A DNA stretch of 13,294 bases from NCBI GenBank assembly GCA_030634785.1, contig DAOWAC010000010.1, forward strand, positions 1 through 13,294, written 5' to 3'. Below the pieces are notes generated by a model. It saw only the letters and a list, made by a program, of their open reading frames with translations, made no database searches and was not told the DNA's origin. A program made the position numbers and the translations under genes. Origin of the DNA: Chloroflexota bacterium (GTDB taxonomy: Archaea > Iainarchaeota > Iainarchaeia > Iainarchaeales > GCA-2688035). Below are positions 5,871 to 7,024 of this stretch, piece after piece; the first letter of the stretch is position 1, and each line of letters opens with the position of its first letter.

Positions 5871-6179
5871 TTAGGGAAGAGTAAACAGCTTATCGTCATT
5901 CTTTCCGTCCAAAAAGCCCGCTCTTACACCTGCATCAAGCCATGCATGAGCATAAGAATACGCAGCCAGTGCCAGAGCAGTTTCTCCTTTTTCTTCAAAA
6001 TGCCTTCCGTCACTCAAATAATTTTCAGCCATTGAAAGAAAATCGTTTGCTCTTACAAAATCTCTTGTTCCCTTAAATGCTTTTACAGAAACCTTAAGCA
6101 AAGCAGCCTCAGTAAGCGCCCTATATCTTGCAGTTTTTTCCTTTAAAGATTCAGCCTTTGCAACATTTTTTTCAGCCAT
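5871..6179 (-). CDS. DUF357 family protein
   Basis: The 102-residue helical protein ends with the diagnostic DUF357 stretch: ENYLSDGRHFEEKGETALALAAYSYAHAWLDAGVR (quoted in part as YLSDGRHF, GETALALAAYSYA and WLDAGVRAGFL). This archaeal family forms a small helical bundle of unknown function. Before the hairpin element was inserted, the gene evidently overlapped the end of dphB by 8 nt (ATGGCTGA). A GGTGAT Shine-Dalgarno lies 4 nt before the ATG and is part of the 23-bp repeat. The former overlap with dphB suggests co-translation and perhaps a shared role, but no function in diphthamide synthesis is established. Confidence 0.87.
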   Translation of the reverse strand: MAEKNVAKAESLKEKTARYRALTEAALLKVSVKAFKGTRDFVRANDFLSMAENYLSDGRHFEEKGETALALAAYSYAHAWLDAGVRAGFLDGKNDDKLFTLP

Positions 6180-6196
6180 TTAAATCACCCAAAGCC
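6174..6196. repeat. 23-bp direct repeat, copy 1 (DUF357 side)
   Basis: This is an exact match to 6265-6287. On the minus strand it contains the GGTGAT Shine-Dalgarno and ATGGCT start of the DUF357 gene. Read in the dphB frame it is also the dphB 3' end; the next bases complete a TGA, which reveals the ancestral dphB stop. Confidence 0.93.
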
Positions 6197-6264
6197 GTCA
6201 CGCCCGGCTGGTGCGAGTACGATTGCCTATTGGCAATCCTACATGCTCGCTTCACTCGCAAATT
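6197..6264. mobile_element. 68-bp GC-rich hairpin element (MITE-like or REP-like) between dphB and DUF357
   Basis: The 68 nt between the two repeats are about 54% G+C, far above the flanks. They fold well: GATTGCC-TATT-GGCAATC is a perfect 7-bp stem with a 4-nt loop (6221-6238). It extends through GTA/TAC past one C-C mismatch, and GCGAG/CTCGC outside. TGCGAGT and ACTCGCA form an alternative outer pair. No open reading frame of use and no clear terminal inverted repeats are present. The flanking exact 23-bp duplication marks it as an insertion. The family is not recognised. Confidence 0.65.
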
Positions 6265-7024
6265 AGCCATTTAAATCACCCAAAGCCTCTTTTTCTTTAT
6301 CAGTTAAGGCAACAGCAATTACAAGAGATTGTGGAAACAAAGCAAAACTGTTTCTCTGCATTTTTTCCAAATCACCAGACATAACCATTTGCTTAGAATT
6401 ACCCAAAGCATACAATCCAATCAAAGTTGCCTTTTGCAGTATATCCTTTCCTTTCTTTTTTTCAATCTTTGCAAGAAGTGACAAAGCTTCTGAAACAGTC
6501 ATCTTGTAACCTTTTTCTATATCAATATCCAAAAGACAAAAACTATGCATTTCTGCATTAAAATTTGACTCAATTATATCATAAAAAGATTCAGGAGCAT
6601 AATTTTCTTTCGGAGCAACAATAGTACAAGCTCTTCCAAAACGATACTGGTCCAAACCAGTTGAACCAACAAAATCAAAAATTGAAATTCCAGGCAAAGC
6701 AATTGTCTTAACCCCAAGCTTTTTTGCATCAAGCAAAAGCTGAATATGAGTTGTTGCACTCAAAGCATTGCCAAAAACAAGCAAGGCAACATCTTCACCA
6801 CTTTTTTTAGCAGCCTTTAACACAAGAGAAAAGCCTTCTTCAATTCCCTTCCTGTCCAAAGCAACTATTTCCTTGCCAACAATTTTCTTAAGCTCTTCAA
6901 TAGTCCCCTCTGCATAAGTCGAAGTATAAGTATCCAAAAACACCTGCTTACACTTGACAATTGCTTTATTTGCTTCAATAGTCAAATGCCCTGGCTTTAA
7001 ACCAATCCCAATTAAATAAAACAT
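6263..7024 (-). CDS. dphB: Diphthine synthase
   Basis: DphB uses S-adenosylmethionine to methylate the precursor side chain on a histidine of elongation factor 2, a middle step of diphthamide synthesis. The 253-residue product starts with MFYLIGIGL and has DTYTS (31-35), an ATTH motif (90-93), STGLDQYRFG (121-130), NYAPESFYDII (141-151) and FCLLDI followed by MTVSEALSLL (175-184). These align well with archaeal DphB over its whole length. The usual G-D-P before ATTH is here Gly85-Asn86-Ala87, an unusual change in a conserved pocket. The stop is now TAA, two bases of which come from the inserted element; the older stop was TGA. A TATA box 26 nt before the ATG suggests a leaderless mRNA. Confidence 0.9.
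   Translation of the reverse strand: MFYLIGIGLKPGHLTIEANKAIVKCKQVFLDTYTSTYAEGTIEELKKIVGKEIVALDRKGIEEGFSLVLKAAKKSGEDVALLVFGNALSATTHIQLLLDAKKLGVKTIALPGISIFDFVGSTGLDQYRFGRACTIVAPKENYAPESFYDIIESNFNAEMHSFCLLDIDIEKGYKMTVSEALSLLAKIEKKKGKDILQKATLIGLYALGNSKQMVMSGDLEKMQRNSFALFPQSLVIAVALTDKEKEALGDLNG
6265..6287. repeat. 23-bp direct repeat, copy 2 (dphB side)
   Basis: Identical to 6174-6196 and 91 bp away. It encodes the last residues of DphB (about ALGDLNG). It also still carries a silent copy of the GGTGAT Shine-Dalgarno and ATGGCT start of DUF357, which now leads straight into a TAA. Confidence 0.93.

Follow-up and report, generated by a model that had tools for sequence, protein, structure and literature searches.

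Short, non-coding, multicopy elements of intergenic DNA are known as MITEs and as small repeats such as ERIC, Correia and the Sulfolobus SM elements. REP/BIME sequences are hairpin repeats in the intergenic DNA of one lineage and are moved by RAYT (Y1) transposases. SINEs are structured and have a fixed 3' end, a variable 5' end and target duplications of variable length. Casposons take tRNA ends as targets and are flanked by target duplications of 14–15 bp. In known tRNA islands, the repeats span the T-arm through the 3' end of the tRNA gene (PMC4383910, PMC8371274), and the Islander procedure, as outlined there, rejects island candidates smaller than 2 kb (PMC4383910).

The elements that we describe here form a family of mobile elements that are short (roughly 55–110 bp), non-coding and structured, and that occur in one Diapherotrites (Iainarchaeota) lineage. 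They share with MITEs, ERIC, Correia and SM elements a short, non-coding, multicopy and intergenic nature, direct repeats at some copies and, presumably, movement in trans; they differ in having no terminal inverted repeats, in variable repeats of 16 to ~45 bp that accompany about one copy in ten, in a fixed 3' hairpin foot and in exact placement at tRNA ends. As lineage-bound intergenic hairpins they are similar to REP/BIME sequences, but they have direct repeats, and Y1 transposases were not found in five of the nine main carrier genomes (defined below). The fixed 3' and variable 5' ends and the variable duplications are SINE-like, whereas the host is archaeal, the element has no tail and no reverse transcriptase was found in the main carriers. 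Casposons are similar in tRNA-end targets and duplications; unlike them, the family has longer and variable duplications and no Cas1 in the main carriers. Common to tRNA-targeted islands and to this family are a displaced T-arm-to-3'-end fragment behind a tRNA gene (the two having the same orientation at the copies L003, L235 and L072, although not at the protein-gene copies, including that of the window) and units in tandem; however, the family measures 55–110 bp, uses many unrelated targets and carries no integrase inside (the 68 bp in the window contain no ORF of their own), nor is there a common att core, except for an 8-bp core in L024 and L068. The family is thus MITE-like in being small and non-autonomous, with individual features that resemble those of tRNA islands and SINEs.

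The window, i.e., the whole stretch of DNA analyzed (13,294 nucleotides), is the entire contig C150 of the host genome G000 (79.5% complete, 176 contigs). Re-reading it bore out the original prediction of an exact 23-bp direct repeat, AGCCATTTAAATCACCCAAAGCC, at 6174–6196 and 6265–6287 around a 68-bp GC-rich non-coding segment, the GC content of which is 54.4%, compared to 34.8% in the 500-bp flanks on either side. The features of the locus are:

5871..6179, minus strand: DUF357 protein gene (ORF; PF04010), with the start codon within the right repeat copy
6174..6196, minus strand: right (3') copy of the 23-bp repeat, with a GGTGAT Shine-Dalgarno-like stretch and the DUF357 start codon inside
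6193..6209, minus strand: P3 hairpin AGCCG(GGCGTGA)CGGCT, the most conserved part, the last four bases of which (GGCT) are common with the repeat
6197..6264, minus strand: element core, 68 bp, without its own ORF (GC step, match to model R1, sister copies)
6212..6218, no strand assigned: P1 arm TGCGAGT, complementary by sequence to 6254–6260 and not formed in single-sequence folds
6221..6238, no strand assigned: P2 hairpin GATTGCC(TATT)GGCAATC, the variable hairpin of the family, present in single-sequence folds and with covariation
6254..6260, no strand assigned: P1 arm ACTCGCA, complementary by sequence to 6212–6218 and not formed in single-sequence folds
6263..7024, minus strand: dph5, diphthine synthase, named dphB in the original prediction (ORF; TIGR00522)
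6265..6287, minus strand: left (5') copy of the 23-bp repeat, the 3' end of dph5, with a single copy in the empty site of genome G004

The element core lies on the minus strand with the P3 hairpin side as its 3' end, and scores 33.4 bits (E = 1.9e-4 within its own genome) against the covariance model R1, which was built from 15 copies. As anticipated, dph5 ends in TAA, to which the repeat contributes one base and the element two, and the Shine-Dalgarno-like GGTGAT of DUF357 is present in the right repeat copy. The duplication had also been claimed to copy exactly the part shared by the two genes; both genes are indeed whole, but "exactly" does not hold, because the 23-bp repeat is longer than the 8-nt gene overlap that it contains. 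It should be noted that other copies of the element usually terminate, on the 3' side, in GGCT (minus strand), which makes up four of the 23 bp here, and the duplication in the window may consist of 19 bp plus 4 bp of microhomology instead of 23 bp.

The DUF357 gene is present in 36 of 38 genomes, with 30 loci among the matches listed. The congener G004 (85% identical at the protein level) has an empty site at dph5/DUF357 (GAGGCTTTGAGTGATTTGAATGGCTGA), the junction of which, AAAGAGGCTTTGAGTGATTTGAATGGCTGAATC, contains a single repeat copy and the 8-nt overlap ATGGCTGA; this is the overlap that had been predicted from removal of the segment and one repeat, and the relative without the element that had been sought. 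A motif scan with up to 3 mismatches detected no element at the DUF357 loci L083–L111, i.e., in G004 and 28 others, and this, together with the empty site, indicates that the insertion is derived in G000. The element at dph5/DUF357 is a derived insertion, with the target duplicated and both reading frames surviving, and we consider an insertion with target duplication at this junction to be highly probable. An immobile element, i.e., a structured signal (RNA or DNA) that is conserved at the ends of genes, the repeat having arisen by ordinary tandem or segmental duplication, would be consistent with apparent orthologous sites that keep the element across several species (tRNA-His, tRNA-Gly, L020/L231 and L008/L116). 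However, the G004 empty site with its single repeat copy already disfavors it, simple tandem duplication included, and the element-free gatA/IMPase junction in genome G005 and the recurrence of the element at unrelated targets, with matching repeats there, also argue against it; we regard an immobile element as very improbable.

Searching for the segment elsewhere yielded further copies in the same genome and in relatives. The minus-strand 3' part, CACCAGCCGGGCGTGACGGCT (with ambiguity codes), matched 13 places in the host genome with up to 3 mismatches, compared to none for the backward pattern. The P3-side pattern AGYCGGGCGTGACGGCT, with up to 2 mismatches, produced 84 matches in 14 of 54 genomes, and its backward control produced 5. 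A stricter pattern was found in 9 of 87 phylum genomes, of which six belong to a single genus, two to another genus in the family, and one, G028, to a different family; these nine genomes, G000–G006, G014 and G028, 79–97% complete, are the main carriers. Matches to R1 occurred in 15 of the 54 genomes: 14 in the host genome, 8–14 in each congener, 4 in G006, 4 in G014, 23 in G028, and one to five weak matches in each of six further genomes. The motif was also located in 12 stretches of named records, labeled Candidatus Diapherotrites (5), "archaeon" (2), Chloroflexi (3), Thaumarchaeota (1) and Bacteroidia (1). The Chloroflexi and Thaumarchaeota labels are probably wrong, given that these records agree with G004 and G003, of the same genus. 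The Bacteroidia record (L173) was rejected as a carrier, since its match (22.6 bits, inside coding sequence by eye) is a chance one. One exact pattern had no matches in viral contigs, and blastn against phages and plasmids returned one match of 25 and 21 bases, respectively, taken as chance. Rfam gave four matches in the window at 6000–6450, all under the gathering score and none on 6197–6264, and at nine other loci three tRNA matches and no match to the element. The family was not described in the literature searched (subscription journals and preprints were outside its scope).

From an initial pool of 127 matches, 24 were dropped (partial P2-only matches, weak fragments, duplicates, two L073 matches and four of G028) and L121 was added from the motif scan, resulting in 104 rows. 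For the fuller set, the L073 and the four G028 matches were restored, more G028 copies were added and the duplicates L216 and L141 were removed, resulting in 119 distinct copies. At one orthologous-looking site, two elements are in tandem in G000 (L008) and one element of another type is present in G002 (L116); here elements seem to have been replaced in place. A second hairpin element type of ~76 nt, with ends AGCCTTTT..AAAAGGCT (tRNA sense), lies behind tRNA-Ala(GGC) at L121:370-441 and 787-859 and in L002 (minus strand); a tRNA-Ala fragment from the T-arm to the 3' end is repeated with it, and it is in tandem in G002. In L133 and L137, element copies lie within a tRNA-Tyr gene that ARAGORN reads with an intron.

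We compared the repeats at other copies to those at control positions. A repeat score of at least 16 was reached by 11 of 104 rows versus 0 of 272 controls in a first round, and by 11 of 119 distinct copies versus 2 of 646 controls in a fuller round; at least 20 was reached by 8 of 119 copies and by none of the controls of either round (0 of 646 and 0 of 272). The window repeat, with a score of 23, is therefore not attributable to chance. L135, a tandem array of the element itself, was set aside from the 11. Repeats in the remaining ten copies, two of them composite, vary from 16 to ~45 bp, which answers the proposed comparison of duplication lengths; because their sequences are mutually unrelated and such repeats are rare in controls, they look like target duplications. 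The copies are:

L001 (window), repeat at the dph5 end: 23 bp
L004, repeat at the gatA end (gatA/IMPase): 23 bp
L080, repeat at the ribosomal L24e end: 29 bp
L231 (likely orthologue L020), end of a predicted 138-aa ORF: 36 bp by scan, with likeness to ~45 bp by eye
L117, end of an ORF ending YWAWQK: 22 bp
L003, L235 and L072, tRNA 3' ends: 23, 20 and 16 bp, respectively
L121 and L211, composite tRNA cases: long repeats

In L001, L004 and L117, the repeat also holds the start of the next gene, so that both genes were kept three times. L004 and L117 sit where two genes overlap by ATGA, and their repeats extend over both the stop and the start codon; the gatA/IMPase junction of G005, without the element, has an ATGA overlap. 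It should be noted that gatA is followed by two IMPase paralogues in G002–G004 (L301, L302 and L303) and by one in G000 and G005; given the extra paralogue, the history of this locus is more complex. No repeat scoring 16 was found at 108 of the 119 copies. In G028, the best score was 8 in 24 rows and 14 for L246 (4 of 646 controls reach 13). The missing repeats of most copies are perhaps due to the old age of these copies.

The two ends of the element behave differently: visual inspection shows a constant 3' end, ..CGGCT, and a variable 5' end, with leaders of different lengths and P1 absent in some copies. No terminal inverted repeats were found, i.e., the ends GTCACGCC.. and ..CGCAAATT are not inverse, and P1 pairs inside while P3 lies outside P1. 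In L001 and L004, the target itself starts with GGCT; this 4-nt overlap at the 3' junction is present in 2 of 10 copies (P = 7e-4, for ten copies chosen by the analyst). These ten are repeats chosen as independent, with L135, L211, L121, L020, L024 and L058 left out as tandem, composite, orthologous, paired or weak.

In 22 of 119 copies, the distance between the right end, i.e., the 3' hairpin foot, and a tRNA gene end is -1 to +3 nt; for the left end, this is so in none of the 119. Ten of the 22 are at tRNA 5' ends in sense and 12 at 3' ends in antisense; together they represent ~16 separate tRNA loci, some of them common to several species. The chance expectation is 0.04 for 104 copies, a rough figure that assumes 46 tRNA genes in 1.2 Mb. 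L149 and L136, at 14 and 18 nt from a tRNA, were not counted as abutting. Except for the composite L211, no duplication was seen at the tRNA-abutting copies. The tRNA 3' fragments that the element abuts in L121 and L211 are displaced and presumably useless; this favors targeting, rather than selection alone.

In the family layout, P1 (TGCGA.GC/GC.TCGCA) is placed around the variable hairpin P2, and two bases on follows P3, AGCCG(GGCGTGA)CGGCT, which may bear some resemblance to the Alu domain of SRP RNA. The expectation that the segment forms hairpins agrees with both lines of evidence, although to different degrees: single-strand folding is moderate compared to shuffles (z = -1.9 for DNA, plus strand, and -2.3 for RNA, minus strand), whereas compensatory change in the family is strong. 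Over 91 aligned matches, 90.1% of cells are paired, and 242 cells are doubly changed versus 60.0 +/- 9.5 in shuffled data (reached by 0 of 500 shuffles), in an alignment that is fitted to the model, with a bias in its favor. The initial, unconstrained alignment has 31 doubly changed cells versus 12.3 +/- 2.5 shuffled; its number of further pair types was not above shuffles (460 of 500 reach it), whereas its other measures were. Alignment A2 was used, and A1, which mixed two element types, was dropped. Both-side changes occur in all five pairs of P3, and the outer P1 is the weakest helix of the family, with 68.9% of cells paired. We used G-U versus A-C cells as a strand test for RNA, with mixed results. 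The test favors RNA in P2 (30 versus 3, with 20 of the 30 G-U cells from one pair), but not elsewhere (22 versus 44 in P1, 10 versus 13 in P3, and 66 versus 68 over all helices).

A SINE-like retroposition, in which the element RNA would be copied by a reverse transcriptase at a nicked target, is consistent with the fixed 3' hairpin end, the variable 5' end, the variable duplications, the 3' microhomology, the lack of terminal inverted repeats and the tolerance of P2 to G-U over A-C. On the other hand, the contribution of one pair to the P2 count and the lack of a G-U excess over all helices weaken the RNA signal, and the reverse transcriptase RVT_1 was detected in 0 of 9 main carriers (79–97% complete) and in 3 of 54 genomes overall. 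Supply of such an enzyme from another source is conceivable. We consider retroposition to be quite unlikely. Cas1 was likewise found in 0 of 9 main carriers, at the same completeness. The Y1 transposase is present in four of the nine (G002, G004, G005 and G014) and was not found in G000, G001, G003, G006 and G028, and PF00589 (Phage_integrase) is present in 50 of 54 genomes. As partners of the element, RVT_1, Cas1, Phage_integrase and Y1_Tnp were all rejected: none of them goes with the element, and Phage_integrase is nearly universal. No parent transposon with the same ends was noticed in the loci that were read.

The main rival explanation is one of recombination. The element together with a gene 3' end would form a tiny circle, which a tyrosine recombinase (XerA or an extra integrase) would integrate at matching gene ends, and the repeats would represent attL and attR. 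Several observations point in this direction: the repeats of L003, L235 and L072 span the T-arm to the tRNA 3' end; the element is in sense at all nine assignable gene-end repeats (L001, L004, L080, L231, L117, L024, L003, L235 and L072; L068 and L230 could not be assigned, and the element is antisense in the composite L121 and L211); an identical leader and the 8-bp core GGCGGACT within 12-bp repeats are common to L024 and L068; L008 is a tandem of the form element-repeat-element, in which the L003 repeat is present in a decayed form; and L121 has tandem units at tRNA-Ala. In addition, an element-like match (at least 21 bits) lies beside an integrase gene in 3 of 10 chosen regions, L288, L293 and L296, but L288 was picked since the element was already known there, and the matches in L293 and L296 are weak (21–23 bits). 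Conversely, about ten unrelated repeat sequences need as many specificities, perfect identity over 22–29 bp at protein-gene ends is unexpected from secondary att use, circles of about 90–130 bp are very small, and the near-universal PF00589 makes its presence uninformative. We regard the circle explanation as possible, although not likely. In L288:832-1909, L293:5084-6663 and L296:4091-5710, the integrase gene lies by a tRNA or tRNA-like fragment, with an element-like hairpin abutting or near; for L288 and L293, the tRNA pieces were recognized by visual inspection and do not appear among the ARAGORN results. Two integrase ORFs, of 721 aa (G004:C11) and 710 aa (G026:C6), have the Phage_integrase match split in two, perhaps by an intein.

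One-ended insertion remains, given that the element has no terminal inverted repeats, and that RVT_1 and Cas1 were found in none of the nine main carriers and Y1 in four of them. Our preferred reading, which we hold with modest confidence, is a non-autonomous element whose insertion involves a staggered cut and the joining of one end, at the 3' hairpin, with the enzyme in trans. The enzyme would cut the target with a stagger of roughly 16–45 nt; the 3' hairpin foot (..CGGCT) would be joined to one target strand, aided where the target starts with GGCT; the loosely defined 5' end would be joined last, and gap filling would produce the direct repeat. Ends of tRNA genes and of other genes would be the preferred or best tolerated targets. 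In the window, the repeat spans the dph5 end and the ribosome-binding site and start of DUF357, leaving one copy for each gene. It should be noted that the L024/L068 pair and the L008 tandem look more like circle recombination than like fresh target duplication. A more specific version, in which the element moves in the form of structured RNA or of single-stranded DNA, with one-ended insertion at the hairpin foot into tRNA termini and gene ends and with duplications of 16–45 bp, i.e., in a SINE-like manner within a reduced archaeal genome and by an enzyme class unrecognised there, appears rather unlikely to us.

Overlaps between genes are abundant in small archaeal genomes, and an insertion there should be lethal. 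The family shows a route of entry, since the duplicated target leaves each gene with its own copy of the overlap; this is the case at L001, L004 and L117, and for the first of these the empty site is clean. That the 3' hairpin joins tRNA termini exactly, in the absence of the expected enzymes, points to an unrecognised integration mechanism and provides a defined system for finding it.
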